This document shows positions 41,959 through 49,951 of a DNA stretch of 64,000 bases, piece by piece. The notes under the pieces are model-generated. The model was given only the letters and a program-made list of their open reading frames with translations. It was not told the origin of the DNA and ran no database searches. Origin of the DNA: Rhizobium johnstonii 3841 (GTDB taxonomy: Bacteria > Pseudomonadota > Alphaproteobacteria > Rhizobiales > Rhizobiaceae); assembly GCF_000009265.1 (NCBI RefSeq), contig NC_008380.1, forward strand, positions 1,493,501-1,557,500. The letters are read 5' to 3'. The translations under genes were made by a program, and so were the position numbers. The first letter of the stretch is position 1. Every line of letters begins with the position of its first letter.

Positions 41959-43443
41959 TCAGCCAGGCTGATTGACCCAGGCATAGCCGAAACGGTAGCG
42001 GTCGTCGCCGCGCCCGTAGAAATAGGGCACGTCGATCACCGACGCCTCAGGTGCGGACGTGCCGAGATTGGCCTGCAGCCATTCAGCCATATCAGGCGGC
42101 AGCGCTTCGCTTCCGCCCTTGGGGAGGAGCCACACGAGGAGAAGCGGTCGTCGGCTGGTAAGATCCGGGTTGAAGCCGGGATAATCCGCGGAGAGGATCG
42201 GCACGCCGGGAATATCCTGCCTGAGATTGCCGGCGAGCAGGCTGTCGCCGGCAAGGATCGCCGCCGGTTCGGCCTGTTTGCGCAGGATTTCCAGCATGCC
42301 GGCATAAGGCCTGTTCAGCCGCTCGTAATGGCCGGTGAAGCGTGCGGCCGCAACACTTCCGTAGAGGGCCGCCGGCACGCCGATCATGATGACGGCGACG
42401 ACAGGTATGAAGCGCCGCAACGCCTTGCCGGTCTCGACGCCCGCGGCCTCGATCTTCAGGCAGAAATAGAGCGGCAGGATGAAGAGCATCGGCACCAGCC
42501 AGCGATCCTTGATGCCGGCCGCACCGCCGAAGACGATCAGAAGCAGAATGCCGGCCAAGAAGACGAGCATCATCCGCTCGAGAAGCCGCGTCCATTCCGA
42601 GCCGGAGCCGAGCGCCGGACGAAGGCTCTTGCCGAAGACGATCGCGAACACCGCCACGGTCAATGCGGCAAAGCTGATGATGGCGAGAGCGAGCGAGCTG
42701 ACGCCCATCGCCACCTGCGTGAGATAGCTCGCATCGCCGCTCGCGGTCATCTTCTCCAGTGTGCGTGCGGTGGCGAAATCGAGATTGTCCTTCAGCCAGA
42801 AGAGATGCGGCAGGGTGATGACGAGCGCCACCGCCGCCGTCAGCCCCAGCCGCCAGTCGAAGATCCGCGGCCGCAGGCGCGCATCCGAAAGCGCGGCAAT
42901 CAGGGCTGCCGCCGGCAGGATCGCGAAATTATATTTGGCAAGCAGGCCGAAACCGATGCCGATGCCTGCGATCAGATAGGAGGCAAGGCTTGGCTGCTTC
43001 AGGCTGCGGATGAAGCCGTAGAAGAAGATGCTGGCCGAGAAGAACACCGCGACCGTGTGCGTCAGGTCGCGCTGCATCTCGAAAGCCATCTGCGGGATGG
43101 TCAGCAGCCCGAGCGTGGCGATCGCCACCAGCGCCTTGTCGCGCAGCACGAGCCGCGCGGTCAGGCCGTAGAGCAGATAGGAGATGAAGAGCAGAAGGTT
43201 CTTCACGATGGAAAGGGCGGTTAGCGAGACGCCGGCAAACTGGAAGACGGTGTATTGCAGCCAGTTGTAGAAGGGCGGCTGCGGGCCGTAGCCGGCGGCA
43301 AGCCATTGCGAGCGGAAGGCCTGTTCGGCCTCGTCGAGATCGAGCGAATGCGAGGTTGCGAGCCGCACGCCGACCTGGAGCACGAAATAGGCGGCCAGCA
43401 GGGCGAAGATCCAACTGATGTCGCGACGGTTGCTCTCGGTCAT
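41959..43443 (-). CDS. rgtC: LPS core galacturonosyltransferase, RgtC-like (GT39)
   Basis: The 494-residue membrane enzyme of the ArnT/PMT fold has about 11 helices and a first periplasmic loop with [10 protein letters not shown]...[12 protein letters not shown]. Rgt enzymes use dodecaprenyl-phosphate-galacturonic acid as donor; RgtC is reported to modify the core mannose, RgtA and RgtB the outer Kdo. It is the most divergent of the three paralogues here, which fits the RgtC role, and is the last gene of the cluster, 1 base after rgtB. The individual letter is inferred from order and divergence. Confidence 0.8.
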   Translation of the reverse strand: MTESNRRDISWIFALLAAYFVLQVGVRLATSHSLDLDEAEQAFRSQWLAAGYGPQPPFYNWLQYTVFQFAGVSLTALSIVKNLLLFISYLLYGLTARLVLRDKALVAIATLGLLTIPQMAFEMQRDLTHTVAVFFSASIFFYGFIRSLKQPSLASYLIAGIGIGFGLLAKYNFAILPAAALIAALSDARLRPRIFDWRLGLTAAVALVITLPHLFWLKDNLDFATARTLEKMTASGDASYLTQVAMGVSSLALAIISFAALTVAVFAIVFGKSLRPALGSGSEWTRLLERMMLVFLAGILLLIVFGGAAGIKDRWLVPMLFILPLYFCLKIEAAGVETGKALRRFIPVVAVIMIGVPAALYGSVAAARFTGHYERLNRPYAGMLEILRKQAEPAAILAGDSLLAGNLRQDIPGVPILSADYPGFNPDLTSRRPLLLVWLLPKGGSEALPPDMAEWLQANLGTSAPEASVIDVPYFYGRGDDRYRFGYAWVNQPG

Positions 43444-43444
43444 C

Positions 43445-44944
43445 CTATCTGGTCTCCGGCCGAACCCAGGCGTAGCCGAGCGCGAAATTGTCGCCCTGGC
43501 GGCCGAAATAATAGGGAAGCGACAGCGAGCCGATCTCCTGCAGCGCGATGCCCGCCGCCGTCAGCGCCGAAGAGAACCGCTCCGGCATGACCGCATCGGC
43601 AGCCGTCGCCGTCTTCTTGCCGCGCCAGACGATCAGCACCGGCCCCTTGGCCTCGGCATAGGCTGGAATGCCCGGCGCCGGAAAATCCGGGATCACTACC
43701 GGCACATCGGGAAATTGCAGCCGCATGTTTCCGCCGATATAGGTGTCGGAAGCAATCACCAGCGCCGGTTCCGCCTGTCGCGTCATCTCGCGCGCGAAAC
43801 CCGCCATTGGCACATTCGGCCGGCTGTAAGTGCCGATCAGCCCGGCGCCGACGACGCGGAAGCCGAGTGCGATTAGCACGCAGGCCATCAGCACCGGCAG
43901 CACCGGCCGGAAGCGGCGCAGTCCGGCGGAAAGGTCGAGCCCGGCGGCCTGCATTTTCGCCAGGAAATAGATCGGCAGCACCAGCAGGAAGGGGTCGAGC
44001 CAGCGCTCGCGCACCGTGGTGGAGCCGGTGAACAGCACGATGAGAGCAATGCCGGCAAGACTTGCGAGCATCATCCGCTCCATCATCCCTGTCCAGCGGT
44101 TGCCTGCCGAAAGCGCCCGGACAAAATCCCGGCGGAAGGTGGCGGCGAATATCACCACCGGCAGCGCCGCAAAGGCGATGATGGCGACGAGAAAGGCGAG
44201 AAGGCCTTTGCCGATCCGCACGGCGCCTGCGGGTTCGCTGCCGGCGGCCATCTTGACCAGAGTGTCGGAGGAGGCGAATGCGAGGTTGCCCTGCAGCCAG
44301 ACCGCGTGCGGCAGGACGATGACGAGCGCGACGGTGATCGCTGCCAGCATGCGCCAGTCGAGCGCCCGGCGCCGCCATTCGGCGTCGGGCAGGATGGCGA
44401 TCAAGGCGACGACAGGCATCAGCGCGAAATTATATTTCGAGATCAGCCCGATGCCGGTCGCAAGCCCGAGCAGCAGGTAGCTCGCCATATCGGGCCGGTC
44501 GAGCGTGCGGAAGAAGCCGTAGAGAAACAGCGAGCTGGCAAAGAGCAGCGCCGTCGTGTGGGTCAGATCCTGCTGGGCCATGTAGGAGACCTGGGGCAGG
44601 GTGATCAGCGCCAGCATGCCGACAGCGGCAAGCGCCTCGTCCTTCAGCACGCGCCGCCCGGCGAGGCCATAGAAGAGATAGGACAGGAACAGCAGGATGT
44701 TCTTCGGAACGATCAACGCTCCGATCGAGATGCCCGTCACCGAAACGACGGCATATTGCATCCAGTTGTAAAAGGGTGGCTGCGGGCCGTAGCCCGCCAG
44801 CAGATATTGCGAGAAGAAGGATTGCTCGGCCTCGTCGAGCTCCAGCGAATGCGGAAGCACGATGCGCAGCACGATGTTGAGCACGAAATAGGCTGCAAGC
44901 AGCAGGCCCGCGGTTTTAATCGTCCTCGTCGCGCGCTCCAGCAT
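43445..44944 (-). CDS. rgtB: LPS core galacturonosyltransferase, RgtB-like (GT39)
   Basis: The 499-residue polytopic GT39 enzyme begins [20 protein letters not shown] and has the family loop [20 protein letters not shown]. It is strikingly similar along its length to the rgtA-like gene at 46111-47604 and less so to rgtC. It lies 12 bases after rgtE and abuts rgtC, so the three are one operon. The role, adding a galacturonosyl residue to outer Kdo, follows from the R. leguminosarum homologues. Confidence 0.83.
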
Positions 44945-44956
44945 CGTGCTGCCGGC

Positions 44957-45973
44957 TTAGGCTTGGCTTTGATCGTCGAAGATCTGCCGCACGATATAAT
45001 TCGGAGAGGCATCGTCGCGGTAATAGGTGCGCGCGATCATTTCCGCCAGGATGCCGGTGGTGATCATCTGCACCGACGACAGCAGCAGCACGACGCCGAC
45101 CATCAGCATCGGTCGCGTGCCGATGTCGTTGCCCAGGATGAACTTGTCGAAGCCGAGATAGAGCAGGATCAGCATGGCGAGAGCGCCGAGGCCTAGGCCG
45201 AGCGAACCGAAGAAATGCCCCGGCCGCGCCTTGTAGCGCATGAAGAACATCACCGACAGCAGATCGAGGATGACGCGGAACGTGCGCGAGATGCCGTATT
45301 TCGAAACGCCGTGCTCGCGGGCGTGGTGGGTGACGGCCATCTCGCCGATGCGCGAGCTCGGCACGACACCGGCGACCCAGGCGGGGATGAAGCGGTGCAT
45401 CTCGCCCATCAGCTTCACCTGCTTGATTATCGAGGCACGGTAGATCTTCAGGCTGCAGCCGTAATCGTGCAGCTTGACGCCGGTAATGCGGCCGATCAGG
45501 TAGTTGGCGCACCAGGAGGGGATCTTGCGCAGGAACAGACCGTCCTTGCGGTTCTTGCGCCAGCCGACCAAGAGATCGAGTTCACGCCGTTCCAGCTCGG
45601 AGACCATCGAAGGAATGTCCTTCGGATCGTTCTGCAGGTCGCCGTCCATCGTCGCGATCAGGCGGCCACGGGCGGTATCGATGCCGGCCTGCATGGCGGC
45701 TGTCTGGCCGAAGTTGCGCTGCAGCTCGACGATCCTGAGCGCCAGCCCCTCGCGTCCGACATATTTGCGGGCGTTGACGAGCGTCGCATCCGTGCTGCCG
45801 TCGTCGACGAGGATCAGCTCCCAGCGATGGGGGTAGCTGACCATCGCAGCCGCGACACGCTCGACGAGCGGGCCGACGCTTTGCTCTTCGTTGAAAATGG
45901 GCACGACCAGCGACAGTTCGAGCGATTGTACCGGATCATTCGTACCGCGAATGGGCTCTACGGTTGTCTGCAA
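44957..45973 (-). CDS. rgtE: Polyprenyl-phosphate galacturonosyl synthase, RgtE-like (GT2)
   Basis: The 338-residue ArnC/DPM1-type enzyme has the GT-A domain (VVPIFNEEQS, LVDDGSTDAT, metal-binding TMDGDLQNDP) and two C-terminal membrane helices near 235-305. RgtE makes the dodecaprenyl-phosphate-galacturonic acid donor used by RgtA/B/C. The start appears to be TTG at 45973 with GGAG seven bases before it. An ATG seven bases upstream is out of frame and opens a 14-codon frame. Confidence 0.85.
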   Translation of the reverse strand: MQTTVEPIRGTNDPVQSLELSLVVPIFNEEQSVGPLVERVAAAMVSYPHRWELILVDDGSTDATLVNARKYVGREGLALRIVELQRNFGQTAAMQAGIDTARGRLIATMDGDLQNDPKDIPSMVSELERRELDLLVGWRKNRKDGLFLRKIPSWCANYLIGRITGVKLHDYGCSLKIYRASIIKQVKLMGEMHRFIPAWVAGVVPSSRIGEMAVTHHAREHGVSKYGISRTFRVILDLLSVMFFMRYKARPGHFFGSLGLGLGALAMLILLYLGFDKFILGNDIGTRPMLMVGVVLLLSSVQMITTGILAEMIARTYYRDDASPNYIVRQIFDDQSQA

Positions 45974-46044
45974 CTTTCATCTCCAAAAGGCCGGACGGTC
46001 GAGCAATCTTTAATGCTGCCGCCGCACTTGCGGAAGGCTACTAC

Positions 46045-46090
46045 ATGAAGTGTCCGCCGGTTGCCAGCGGGCAATGCGGATTCCCGCAAT
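46045..46090 (+). pseudogene. Decayed copy of the flippase-like gene start
   Basis: From the ATG at 46045 the sequence resembles the start of the gene at 47780. The 18 bases before both ATGs are almost the same (GGAA-GCTACTAC), and the first codons read MKCPPVASGQCGF against MKSSIVESRQSWF. After about 40 bases the similarity is lost. It lies in the 137-base gap between rgtA and rgtE. Confidence 0.55.
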
Positions 46091-46110
46091 CGGCTGATCT
46101 GCCGGGGGCG

Positions 46111-47604
46111 CTATTTCGCGCCGCCTTCCACCCAGGAGTAACCAATGGAGAAGCTGCGTTTGCCGTCACCGAAGAGATAGGGCAGCGTCAGCGTCTTCAA
46201 CTCTGGCAGATGAATGCCCGATTTGACGAGGTCATTGGCGAAGCCGGGGGAAATTGTCGGATCATCTGCGGTCTCGCCGCGCCAGATAACCAGCACCGGT
46301 CCCTTCGCGTCCGCATATTCGGGAACTCCGGGGCCGGGGAAGAACGGGATCACGACGGGAACATCGGGAAACTGCAGCCGCATGTTGCCGGCAATGAACT
46401 TGGTTCCCGCCACGATGAGAACCGGCTTGCGGGTCGCGGTCAATTCAGCCACGTAGCCGGAAAAGGGTACGTTCGTTCTCGTATAAGTGCCGATGTATTG
46501 AATGCCGACGATCCGGAAAAGAAGGATCGACAGGATGACGACCATGAAGACCGGCACCACGGGTCGGAAGCGCGCAAGACCGGCGGAAAGATCGATGTCT
46601 GCGGTTTCCAGTTTCAGGAACAGATAGATCAGCAGGACAAGCAGGCATGGGTCGAGCCAGCGCTCGTGGATATCGCTCGCGCCGGCGAAGAGGACCACGC
46701 CGACGAAGGCGAGCAGGCTGATGACCATCATCCGTTCGATCACCCGGATCATCGGGCTGGAAGAGGAGAGCGCGCGAAAAAAGTCGCGCCGGAAGGCGGC
46801 AGCGATCAGGACGATCGGCAATGCGACGAAGCCGAGGACGGCGATGACGAGAGACAGCAGTCCTTGCCCGATGCGCGGGAGGCCGGCCGGGGCCAGGTGT
46901 TCGGCAGTCATTCGCTCCAGCGTTGGCGCAGAGGCGCTGGCGAGATTGTCGGGCAGCCAGAGCGCATGCGGCAGCACGATCAGAATGGCAAGGACGGCCG
47001 CCGGCAGCAAACGCCAGTCGATGAGACGGCTGCGCCATTCCCGCTCCGGCAGCACGGCGATGAGGGCGGCAAATGGCAGGATGGCGAAATTATACTTCGA
47101 GATGAGCCCGATGCCGGTGGCGATGCCGATGAGGAGATAGCTCCCGATCGTCGGTTGGCGCAGTGTGCGGAAAAAACCGAAGAGGAAGAGCGAGGTCGCA
47201 AACAGCAGGGCAACCGTATGGGTCAATTCGCGCTGCGCCATCAGGCCGACCTGCGGCAGGGTAATCAGGCTCAGCATGGCGAGCGCTGCGAGCGAACGGC
47301 TCTTCAGCACCTCGCGGGCAGCAAGCCCGTAGAAGAGATAGCAGCCGAAGAGAATGATGTTCTTCGGCACCGAGAGCACCCACATCGATATGCCGGTCAC
47401 CGAAACGATGGCATATTGGATCCAGTTGTAGAAGGGCGGCTGCGGGCCGTAGCCGGCAAGCAGGTATTGCGAGTAGAAGGATTGCTCCGCCTCGTCGAGA
47501 TCGAGCGTATGCGGCAAGGCGATGCGAAGCGCGATGTTCAGCAGGAAATAGGCCGCCAGAAAAATGCTTGCGCTCGTAATGCTTCTGGTAATCCGCTCCA
47601 ACAT
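46111..47604 (-). CDS. rgtA: LPS core galacturonosyltransferase, RgtA-like (GT39)
   Basis: The 497-residue polytopic GT39 enzyme begins [20 protein letters not shown], aligned with rgtB; the frame extends five codons upstream. It has the same first-loop motif ([21 protein letters not shown]). Assignment as RgtA rests on the order rgtA-rgtE-rgtB-rgtC, which I recall from R. leguminosarum, and on its closeness to rgtB. It is separated from rgtE by 137 bases holding a gene-start remnant. Confidence 0.82.
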
Positions 47605-47679
47605 CGATCTCCACGTCAAGCCGGCAAGGCGCCATCACGGCCGATCGGATCGTCGGCGTGGAAGCATGTTCGCCACCGC

Positions 47680-47725
47680 CGCCATCAACTCCGTCGTTGT
47701 GCGCAACCTTCATTTCTCCTAAAAG
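47680..47725 (-). pseudogene. Decayed copy of the rgtE start upstream of rgtA
   Basis: On the minus strand, CCTTTTAGGAGAAATGAAGG followed by TTGCGCACAAC closely follows CCTTTTGGAG-ATGAAAGTTGCAGACAAC at the rgtE start. The spacing from the upstream ATG to the TTG start is 7 bases in both. Codons read LRTTTE against LQTTVE, then diverge. Confidence 0.5.
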
Positions 47726-47779
47726 GCCTGGCGACGGAACCGCTGCCTATGCCGAAGCCAAGCAAGGAATGCCTACTAC

Positions 47780-48742
47780 ATGAAGAGTTCGATCGTTGAA
47801 AGCCGGCAATCCTGGTTTATGCGCAATCGCATGACCGTTCTGACGGTCGTCATCGTCGCAGCCTATGGCCTCTTCATCCAATGGTTCTGGGGTTGGCCTG
47901 TTATCATCAGGCAGTGGGCCGATGTCGGCGCGGGTCCGGTGATCGGTGCGCTGGTGCTGCTGACGAGCACCTATTTCCTGCGCACCTGGCGTATCTATGA
48001 TTATTTTCCGAAGGAAACGGCTGGGCGGTTCGCGGTCCTCTTCCGCGTCACGCAGATCCACAATCTGCTGAACATCATGCTGCCCTTCCGCGCCGGCGAG
48101 ACCAGCTTTCCGCTGCTGATGCGCACCGAATTCGGCATTCCGCTGACGCGCGGAACCTCGGCGCTGTTCGTCATGCGGCTGCTCGACCTGCACGCGCTTC
48201 TGGCCGCCGCCGGCATCGGCTTTGCGATCGCTTCAGCCGATGCCGCTATTGCCTGGTCGCTCTGGACTGTCTTCCTGCTGCTGCCGGTCGCGGCCTTCGC
48301 CGCCCGCAAGCCGCTGCTGCGCCTGGCCGCCAGACTGCTGCCGAACAAGGCGCAGAAATTCGTCGCCGAGATCGAAAACGGCTTGCCGCTTGATGCCATC
48401 GCCTTTGCGCGCGCCTGGGCGATGACCATCGTCAACTGGGTGGTGAAGGTGATGGTGCTCGCATGGGCGCTCGGCCTGATGGGCGTGCTGCCGATGGCGG
48501 CAAGCTTCGGCGGCGCGCTCGGCGGCGAACTCTCCTCCGTGCTGCCGATGCATGCGCCAGGCGGCGTCGGCACTTATCCGGCCGGCATCACTGCCGGCGC
48601 CATCGCTTTGGGCGCCTCGAGCGAGCGGTTGGCCCTGGCCGCGCTGGCGCAGGCAAGCGTCAATGCCCACTTGCTGATCATCGTCTCGGCGCTCACCGGC
48701 ACGGCGATCTCACTACCGCTCGGACGTCGCGGCAAGCTCTGA
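47780..48742 (+). CDS. Flippase-like integral membrane protein (LPG synthase TM domain/UPF0104 type)
   Basis: The 320-residue protein has eight or so hydrophobic helices and motifs of the AglD/MprF-TM family (NIMLPFRAGE with R and E in a membrane segment, GVGTYPAG near the C-terminus). Family members are proposed to flip or handle lipid-linked substrates. It is divergent from rgtA, 175 bases away, so a role in moving the galacturonosyl-lipid across the membrane is a hypothesis. The 3' end overlaps the convergent sigma gene by 30 bases. Confidence 0.75.
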   Translation: MKSSIVESRQSWFMRNRMTVLTVVIVAAYGLFIQWFWGWPVIIRQWADVGAGPVIGALVLLTSTYFLRTWRIYDYFPKETAGRFAVLFRVTQIHNLLNIMLPFRAGETSFPLLMRTEFGIPLTRGTSALFVMRLLDLHALLAAAGIGFAIASADAAIAWSLWTVFLLLPVAAFAARKPLLRLAARLLPNKAQKFVAEIENGLPLDAIAFARAWAMTIVNWVVKVMVLAWALGLMGVLPMAASFGGALGGELSSVLPMHAPGGVGTYPAGITAGAIALGASSERLALAALAQASVNAHLLIIVSALTGTAISLPLGRRGKL

Positions 48743-49951
48743 AATCCGTCTTCTCAGAAACGCCTGCTCCGGCTCCTGCCGGCAGAGCGACAGCGCTGTT
48801 TGATAGGCGGCGATCGCCTCTTGCCTCCGACCGAGACGGCGCAGGAAATCGGCGCGCGCCGAATGGGCGAGGTGATAGGCCTGCAGCTCCCCGCGTCCCA
48901 GAATGGCATCGACCAGTTCCAGCCCCTTCGCCGGCCCTTCCGCCATGGCAATCGCCACGGCGCGGTTGAGCTCGACGATCGGGGAGGGCTGTGCTGCCAG
49001 AAGCAAATCGTAATAAAAGGCGATCCGCCGCCAGTCGGTCTCTTCGGCAGCGGGCGCCTTGGCATGTTCGGCGGCGATCGCCGCCTGCAGCGTATAGATG
49101 CCGATCTCTCCGGCTTCCATCGCCGCAGCGAGCAGCGTCAGGCCTTCCGCAATCTTCGCATGATCCCAGAGCGAGCGGTCCTGATCGGCAAGCAGCACCA
49201 GCGATCCGTCTCCGACTCGGCGGGCGGTGCGGCGGGAATCCTGCAGCAGCATCAAGGCCAGCAGGCCGGAGACGTCGGGATGCGGCAGCAGCGCCAGAAG
49301 CAGTCGCGCCAGACGGATCGCTTCTGCGGTCAGGTCGGCGCGGACCACCTCCTCGCCCGAAGAGGCCGAATAGCCCTCGTTGAAGACGAGGTAGATGACG
49401 TGCAGCACCCGGTCTAGCCGCGGCGGCAGCGCCTCGCGGCCCGGCACCTCGTAGGGGATATTCGCCGCCCGGATCCTGCCTTTGGCGCGCACGATCCGCT
49501 GCGCTACCGTCGGCGCCGGAATGAGGAAGGCATGGGCGATCTCTTCGGTGGTCAGCCCGCAGATTTCCCTGAGCGCCATCGCCATCTGCGCATCGGCCGG
49601 GATGAGCGGATGGCAGCAGGTGAAGATCAGCCGCAGCATGTCGTCCTCGATCGGTTCCATGTCGCCGATCTCCGTTGCATCGGGCGTGTAGAGGCTGTCC
49701 TCGATGTGATGCTGCGAAGCATCGAAACGCACCCGCCGCCGGATCGTATCGATCGCCTTGAAGCGCCCCGTCGAAACGAGCCAGGCGAAGGGATTGCCGG
49801 GAATGCCGTCTGTCGGCCATGTCCGGGCGGCGGCGGCAAAGGCGTCGTGAACCGCCTCCTCCGCCCGGTCGAAATCGCCGAGCAGACGGATCAGCGTCGC
49901 CAGCACCCGGCGCGACTGCGTTCGGTAGATTTCTTCGATGACGCTTTCCAA
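48713..49951 (-). CDS. ECF RNA polymerase sigma factor, ECF42 type with TPR-like extension
   Basis: The 412-residue protein has sigma-2 (about 8-75: LLGDFDRAEEAVHDAFAAA) and sigma-4 (about 110-165: LTTEEIAHAFLIPAPTVAQR) domains, then a 240-residue helical extension with TPR-like repeats. This is the layout of ECF42 sigma factors, whose genes accompany YCII/DGPF proteins. The start is TTG at 49951 with GAGGTG five bases upstream. It lies 9 bases after the last of three such genes. Confidence 0.92.
   Translation of the reverse strand: MESVIEEIYRTQSRRVLATLIRLLGDFDRAEEAVHDAFAAAARTWPTDGIPGNPFAWLVSTGRFKAIDTIRRRVRFDASQHHIEDSLYTPDATEIGDMEPIEDDMLRLIFTCCHPLIPADAQMAMALREICGLTTEEIAHAFLIPAPTVAQRIVRAKGRIRAANIPYEVPGREALPPRLDRVLHVIYLVFNEGYSASSGEEVVRADLTAEAIRLARLLLALLPHPDVSGLLALMLLQDSRRTARRVGDGSLVLLADQDRSLWDHAKIAEGLTLLAAAMEAGEIGIYTLQAAIAAEHAKAPAAEETDWRRIAFYYDLLLAAQPSPIVELNRAVAIAMAEGPAKGLELVDAILGRGELQAYHLAHSARADFLRRLGRRQEAIAAYQTALSLCRQEPEQAFLRRRISELAATSER

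Follow-up and report, generated by a model that had tools for sequence, protein, structure and literature searches.

A stretch of 64,000 nucleotides from Rhizobium johnstonii 3841 (NC_008380.1, positions 1,493,501 to 1,557,500; hereafter the window, meaning the whole of it) carries a cluster of glycosyltransferase genes in which rgtA stands between rgtE and a divergently oriented flippase-like gene, two neighbours that in nearly all relatives lie back to back. How did an extra gene come to occupy this junction, and what became of the short region from which its two neighbours start? Two same-orientation copies of the flanking segment enclose rgtA, and each copy of the divergent start region, here called P, still holds a conserved relic of the gene start that it has ceased to serve. 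Tandem duplication of a P-containing segment with partial loss, together with arm-wise retention of promoters embedded in the gene starts, is in our view the best explanation of this arrangement, and a fairly probable one.

Two copies of a divergent start region around rgtA

The first-pass annotation of the window, made from the letters alone, had described rgtA as flanked on either side by a copy of the same divergent start region, with strongly matching ends and a weak middle, and both parts of that description hold. The two copies and their relics are as follows:

45974–46110, no strand: P1, the rgtE-proximal copy, with the rgtE side working and the flippase side a relic; includes a short spacer after rgtA
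47605–47779, no strand: P2, the flippase-proximal copy, with the flippase side working and the rgtE side a relic, plus the spacer to rgtA
46045–46092, plus strand: flippase-start relic in P1, an ATG and about 16 codons reading MKCPPVASGQ..., its sequence conserved and its frame not
47689–47725, minus strand: rgtE-start relic in P2, with a ribosome-site-like AGGAG, an ATG and a TTG at 7-base spacing, and LRTTTE; relic TTG at 47706–47704

Local alignment of the two flanks (45900–46160 with 47630–47900), a comparison of the kind proposed in that annotation, scored 366, well above 1000 dinucleotide-shuffled controls (mean 187.5, s.d. 19.1, maximum 263), the match being concentrated in islands at the rgtE and flippase starts. 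These two ends carry most of the signal, since the intergenic core alone, aligned globally, barely exceeds its shuffles, scoring 113 where the best of 2000 reached 110. When 45950–46110 was compared with the whole window, on both strands and in 250-base steps, the best non-self match fell at 47626 (304) and the next reached 202. The rgtE TTG start, the ATG at 46045, the flippase ATG at 47780 and the relic TTG with its 7-base spacing all lie where they had been annotated. Among the 5 to 20 best-ranked titles of each search of the open-licence literature on rgt genes, on Rhizobium promoters and start sites and on duplicated divergent promoters, none described a duplication at the flanks of rgtA.

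The arrangement is general among genomes that carry this gene. A search of the genus covered 148 genomes, 50 of them with rgtA at ≥80% identity; the order flippase gene, rgtA, rgtE is found in all 50, with gaps of 142–210 and 132–148 nt, and at every locus the flanks of rgtA align better than any of 100 shuffled controls, with z between 5.9 and 13.0 and a median of 9.0. The wider family shows the single-copy form, with the flippase gene directly beside rgtE. Among 80 rgtE loci fetched by name, the order flippase gene–rgtA–rgtE–rgtB–rgtC occurs in 11 named leguminosarum-etli loci (L005–L015), and at nearly all the other Rhizobiaceae loci the flippase gene and rgtE stand back to back (exceptions L038 and L051), which makes the single copy the common state and the two-copy state that of the rgtA-bearing clade. 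The order flippase gene–rgtE–rgtB–rgtC, without rgtA, is found in L066, L107, L108, L109 and L110. In single-copy Rhizobium loci P is mostly 69–97 nt long (142 in L033), and both gene starts are visible in it. The start codon of rgtE itself is TTG in the rgtA-bearing clade and GTG in several relatives, the first codons being alike at the DNA level.

The genes concerned are these:

47780–48742, plus strand: flippase-like gene, PF03706, LPG_synthase_TM family membrane protein of 320 amino acids (aa)
46111–47604, minus strand: rgtA, GT39-like (PF13231, PMT_2) glycosyltransferase, 497 aa from the ATG at 47604, the best-placed start
44957–45973, minus strand: rgtE, GT2 (PF00535) glycosyltransferase, TTG start at 45973–45971
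43445–44944, minus strand: rgtB, GT39-like (PF13231), paralogue of rgtA
41959–43443, minus strand: rgtC, GT39-like (PF13231), a more distant paralogue

RgtA, RgtB and RgtC, proteins of about 500 aa, all exceed the PF13231 (PMT_2) cut-off (56.3–62.9 bits against 26.1), and RgtA is 61% identical to RgtB and 43% to RgtC. We take these three to be the lipopolysaccharide (LPS) core galacturonosyltransferases of Rhizobium leguminosarum, and the GT2 protein to be its RgtE, names and functions alike being assumed here, with the three GT39-like enzymes presumably moving galacturonic acid from a polyprenyl-phosphate donor onto the LPS core. Beyond the cluster, an open reading frame (ORF) on the minus strand (48713–49951) converges on the flippase gene and resembles ECF-type sigma factors, with scores below curated cut-offs. 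In other genomes, the rgtC of G227 holds an in-frame TGA, and in G257 rgtC (locus L114) and rpoB are each split into two frames, perhaps through assembly errors.

Conserved relics and putative promoters

The relics had been annotated as vestiges, a label that they do not bear out: both are under constraint. Among 28 representatives (<95% DNA identity in rgtA) of the 50 genomes, the rgtE-start relic of P2 shows a mean pairwise difference of 0.048 and the flippase-start relic of P1 one of 0.096, as compared with 0.216 for the pooled spacers; the individual neighbouring spacers and middles give 0.312, 0.225, 0.193 and 0.173, and four-fold sites 0.31 in rgtA, 0.27 in the flippase gene and 0.20 in rgtE. 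The relics thus change 2 to 4.5 times more slowly than the spacers (Mann-Whitney p 2e-8 for the P2 relic and 5e-6 for the P1 relic, over columns that are not independent). Within and beside them lie short boxes that recur throughout the clade:

46062–46067, minus strand: putative −35 box facing rgtE in P1, CTGGCA, within the flippase-start relic, identical in 50/50 genomes
46040–46045, minus strand: putative −10 box facing rgtE in P1, TGTAGT after a 16-nt spacer, T[GA]TA[GC]T in 50/50
45964–45989, plus strand: TTGTCT, 14 nt, CAAAAG, an apparently broken box in P1 that faces the flippase gene
47697–47725, plus strand: putative flippase promoter in P2, TTGTGC, 17 nt, TAAAAG, within the rgtE-start relic
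47775–47802, minus strand: putative rgtA-facing promoter in P2, CTTTCA, 16 nt, TGTAGT, overlapping the first flippase codons

Boxes of the same kind are seen in the single-copy state. Box counts in single-copy P were made at 42 chosen loci of the Rhizobium/Neorhizobium type, with loci that have a different P left uncounted (for example L030, L033, L034, L037 and L041); the flippase-facing pattern TTGT-17 nt-TA lies within the rgtE start in 42/42, and an rgtE-facing pattern of the CTGGCA-16 nt-T[AG]TA type lies within the flippase start, likewise in 42/42, with the variants CTTTCA, CTAGCG, CTGGCG, CTGGCT and CTGGCC and, in the mesosinicum-like group, a −10 of TGTATC. The two copies in the rgtA-bearing clade keep parts of this plan: P1 has CTGGCA-16-T[GA]TA[GC]T towards rgtE, and P2 has CTTTCA-16-T[GA]TA[GC]T towards rgtA and TTGTGC-17-TAAAA[GC] towards the flippase gene, each in 50/50 genomes. 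The flippase-facing box of P1 is consistently damaged, its spacing being 13–15 and its second element CAAAA, without the first T of TAAAAG, in 50/50. In P2 the ribosome-site core AGGAG of the relic is changed in 12/50 genomes and TAAAA is intact in 50/50, and neither −35 box varies among the 28 representatives. The conserved boxes have −35/−10-like spacing and are broken only on the P1 arm that has become dispensable. We read them as a divergent pair of promoters, each arm of which overlaps the start of the gene on the other side; the boxes may well be promoters that lie inside the starts of adjacent genes, each copy having held on, after duplication, to the arm that a gene still required.

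Parentage, age and recurrence

Trees of the GT39-like proteins were built without near-duplicate loci (92 of 142 proteins in a broad tree, 42 chosen proteins in a careful one). They place rgtA on the rgtB side, and rgtA follows an rgtE start in the same orientation and order as rgtB does; it is a paralogue of the gene that occupies the same place in the block. To that extent the earlier suggestion that rgtA is a duplicate of rgtB stands, but an exclusive pairing of rgtA with the rgtB of the leguminosarum-etli clade is rejected (approximately unbiased test, p 7e-9, at a cost of 75 log units), because rgtA groups with stand-alone genes of five mesosinicum-like genomes (L101–L105; support 100/99 in the 42-protein tree). 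The sisterhood that had been proposed as a check is accordingly absent in its strict form, although in a wider sense rgtA does not fall outside the rgtB clade: rgtA, leguminosarum-etli rgtB and the mongolense-type B fall together in a single group (84/74, rising to 98/91 when two more rows are included). Within it, rgtA joining the clade's rgtB first has p 0.25, and the alternative, in which that rgtB joins the mongolense-type B first, is supported at 78/77. Sister genes within the lineage, such as a recent duplication would leave, were thus not found, a result compatible with an older duplication.

The stand-alone genes are 64–66% identical to rgtA, each lies in a draft genome on a contig other than that of rgtE, and their hosts are 5 of the 14 genomes whose rgtE is 91–93% identical and ends at residue 336. 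Genes close to that of L101 include those for a VapE/primase-like protein and an MFS transporter, a gene for a heavy-metal ATPase lies close to that of L103, and by eye the flanks differ between L101/L102 and L103–L105. At the rgt locus itself, the mesosinicum-like group has a single GT39, another rgtC-side gene. The group joins the leguminosarum-etli clade in the rgtE tree (95/92) and in the flippase tree (99/97), the alternative join with the mongolense-type being rejected in each (p 0.001 and 0.008), and the rpoB tree agrees weakly (66/99.7). A chimeric locus, with rgtE and flippase gene of different ancestry, was considered and rejected, both trees joining the same two groups.

The relics themselves carry a record of age. 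Codons 6–8 of the flippase-start relic read VAS in 50/50 genomes, and those of the working flippase gene read VES in 50/50 and in 12/12 mesosinicum-like loci (8 distinct genomes); VAS or GAS is found in 40/40 other loci (37 distinct), these 52 loci outside the clade being chosen ones of the Rhizobium/Neorhizobium type, some from the same record (for example L016 and L131). In a tree of P (12 of the 50 genomes, 124 columns), P2 groups with the mesosinicum-like P and P1 falls outside (97/90). The duplication is probably older than the leguminosarum-etli clade, because exclusive pairing of its rgtA and rgtB is rejected and the relic lacks the VES of both groups' flippases; the simplest reading is that it preceded the split from the mesosinicum-like group, which then lost rgtA, rgtB and rgtC at the locus. 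A recent tandem duplication within leguminosarum-etli, with rgtA copied directly from its own rgtB and the relics left as inert vestiges, would account for the two copies of P and for the paralogy of rgtA and rgtB, and an exclusive pair of P1 and P2 is not formally rejected (p 0.11); it is nonetheless quite improbable, given the rejected exclusive clade of rgtA and rgtB, a relic reading VAS beside flippases that read VES in both groups, and remnants that are conserved.

Nor is the rgtA-bearing clade alone in having a gene at this junction. A further set of 70 rgtE loci was examined, 60 of them from other genera and 8 from the same genus, with L038 and L051 included again; the flippase gene lies within 400 nt of rgtE in 63, and a GT39 gene lies between the two in five (L237, L247, L268, L038 and L051). 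All five are rgtC-side genes and, in a quick tree, occupy at least three positions separate from that of rgtA, so that a GT39 gene appears, on these trees, to have arrived in this junction at least four times, rgtA included, the duplicated start region being visible in three instances. In L268 the flanks are duplicated (329 against a maximum of 231 in 500 shuffles); in L038 they probably are (216, with 1/500 shuffles as high), and the same boxes stand on the expected sides.

Copies of rgtA have also moved. Genomes G214 (L116) and G226 (L117) hold a second rgtA outside the locus, with upstream flanks that score 480 and 361 in alignment with the rgtA locus, where shuffles reach at most 274 and 277; the downstream match is clear in L116 (316 against 246) and at chance level in L117 (228 against 249), and L116 includes the rgtE-start relic, L117 only the sequence just behind it. 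Such flanks imply that the departure of these copies came later than the duplication. Near the L116 copy there is a TniQ gene, and the further flanks of L116 and L117 are partly alike by eye.

A proposed history, its rivals and known systems

The ancestral locus would have read flippase gene ← P → rgtE–rgtB–rgtC, with a short P in which each of the two promoters overlapped the opening codons of the gene on the other side. Tandem duplication would then have copied a stretch reaching from the flippase start across rgtE and into the glycosyltransferase genes. It would probably have taken place no later than in the common ancestor shared by the leguminosarum-etli and mesosinicum-like groups, and partial loss would have left flippase gene–P2–rgtA–P1–rgtE–rgtB–rgtC. 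P2 would have retained its flippase-facing arm, within the rgtE-start relic, and its downstream-facing arm, now serving rgtA; P1 would have retained the rgtE-facing arm, within the flippase-start relic, and lost the other.

One step in this history is the fate of the first rgtE, which the first-pass annotation had taken to be lost after a tandem duplication. Duplication with loss remains the simplest origin, but disappearance of a whole rgtE is an inference: at the 7 of 50 loci tried, nothing of rgtE beyond its opening codons could be recognised between relic and rgtA, and the spacer, in which a 3' remnant of rgtE was sought, matches rgtE no better than chance in 7/7 (share of shuffles as high, 0.05–0.47). 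This absence is also what would be expected had a single crossover at P inserted an rgtA-bearing circle or foreign segment with its own piece of P, duplicating P without there ever having been a second rgtE. The travelling copies of G214 and G226, with their matching upstream flanks and a TniQ gene near one, and the five genomes in which rgtA-like genes stand alone show a mobility that suits such an event. It would, however, need a donor with P beside rgtA, and L101–L105, the possible donors examined, have nothing of P on either side, whereas tandem duplication accounts for the orientation and for the order of P, rgtE start and GT39 without one; we regard insertion as unlikely.

Further results weigh against the proposed history in whole or in part, as do the lack of an rgtE body and of P beside the stand-alone genes. 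The P tree leaves standing, besides the exclusive pair of P1 and P2, a grouping of both with the mesosinicum-like P (p 0.088), and when free it places P1 among other Rhizobium with weak support; the history requires rgtA, rgtB and rgtC to have disappeared from the locus in the mesosinicum-like group; and among the five parallel loci no duplicated flank was detected in three (L237, L247 and L051) and no boxes were found in the four other than L038. The boxes were defined by eye once the alignments had been seen, and a promoter scan found no sigma-70-like site with at least 9 of 12 consensus letters. The R. etli SigA consensus is given as CTTGAC-N16-23-TATNNT (PMC4943231), which the boxes match only partly and weakly. 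The −10 boxes (0.098 in P1, 0.086 in P2) are hardly or not at all better conserved than the stretches between boxes (0.137 and 0.082). Silent change is reduced at gene starts, but in those of rgtB and rgtC too, and silent-site constraint was dropped as proof of embedded promoters for lack of specificity. The best-ranked titles in the open-licence literature on Rhizobium promoters and start sites yielded no transcription start data for these boxes.

The deviation of the boxes from consensus and the ordinary conservation of the −10 elements would suit a third possibility, compatible with either origin of rgtA, in which the relics are conserved not as core promoters but because they encode a leader peptide, fold into an RNA structure or bind a regulator. 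We give it rather less than even odds. A leader peptide in P2 was rejected, frame and length varying among the 50 genomes, and ORFs from the flippase-start relic range from 17 to 587 in length, its frame not being kept. Folded as a single sequence the P1 relic is rather stable (z −2.55), yet its alignment fold (−7.05) is no better than column shuffles (mean −5.48, s.d. 2.58), and a conserved RNA structure was rejected; a regulator-binding site may still play a part. The conserved parts, moreover, have the spacing of −35 and −10 elements and are disrupted only where an arm has lost its use, which fits embedded promoters better.

Taken more broadly, the junction of flippase gene and rgtE could be a recurrent site of duplication and loss by which LPS glycosyltransferase genes are added or reordered, the copies dividing the work of a two-way promoter each time and gene-start 'fossils' being kept as promoters of other genes, with the leguminosarum-etli clade, L038 and L268 as separate instances. 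We offer this tentatively, as rather less probable than not. The proposed history would supply an origin for the extra glycosyltransferase of leguminosarum-etli rhizobia, and the genomes assembled here (before, after and in parallel) form a set for testing how the work of a divergent promoter is shared out once it has been duplicated. Remnants of gene starts between bacterial genes may persist for regulation, and should not be read as neutral fossils.

It remains to set the locus beside known systems, each as we understand it. Its gene content and families (three PMT_2 proteins and one GT2) are those of the R. leguminosarum rgt set, the work on which deals with what the enzymes do; the duplication of the start region is a different, evolutionary matter. 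With divergent overlapping promoters it shares two genes that stand back to back, mostly with 69–97 nt between their starts, whereas here the putative boxes lie largely within the opening codons of the gene on the other side and, in the duplicated state, P1 has an alteration in one of its arms in 50/50 genomes. With tandem duplication and differential loss it shares a duplicated flank, a partial gene remnant, single-copy relatives and a repeated change of gene order; it differs in that both remnants are conserved, apparently as control elements of other genes.

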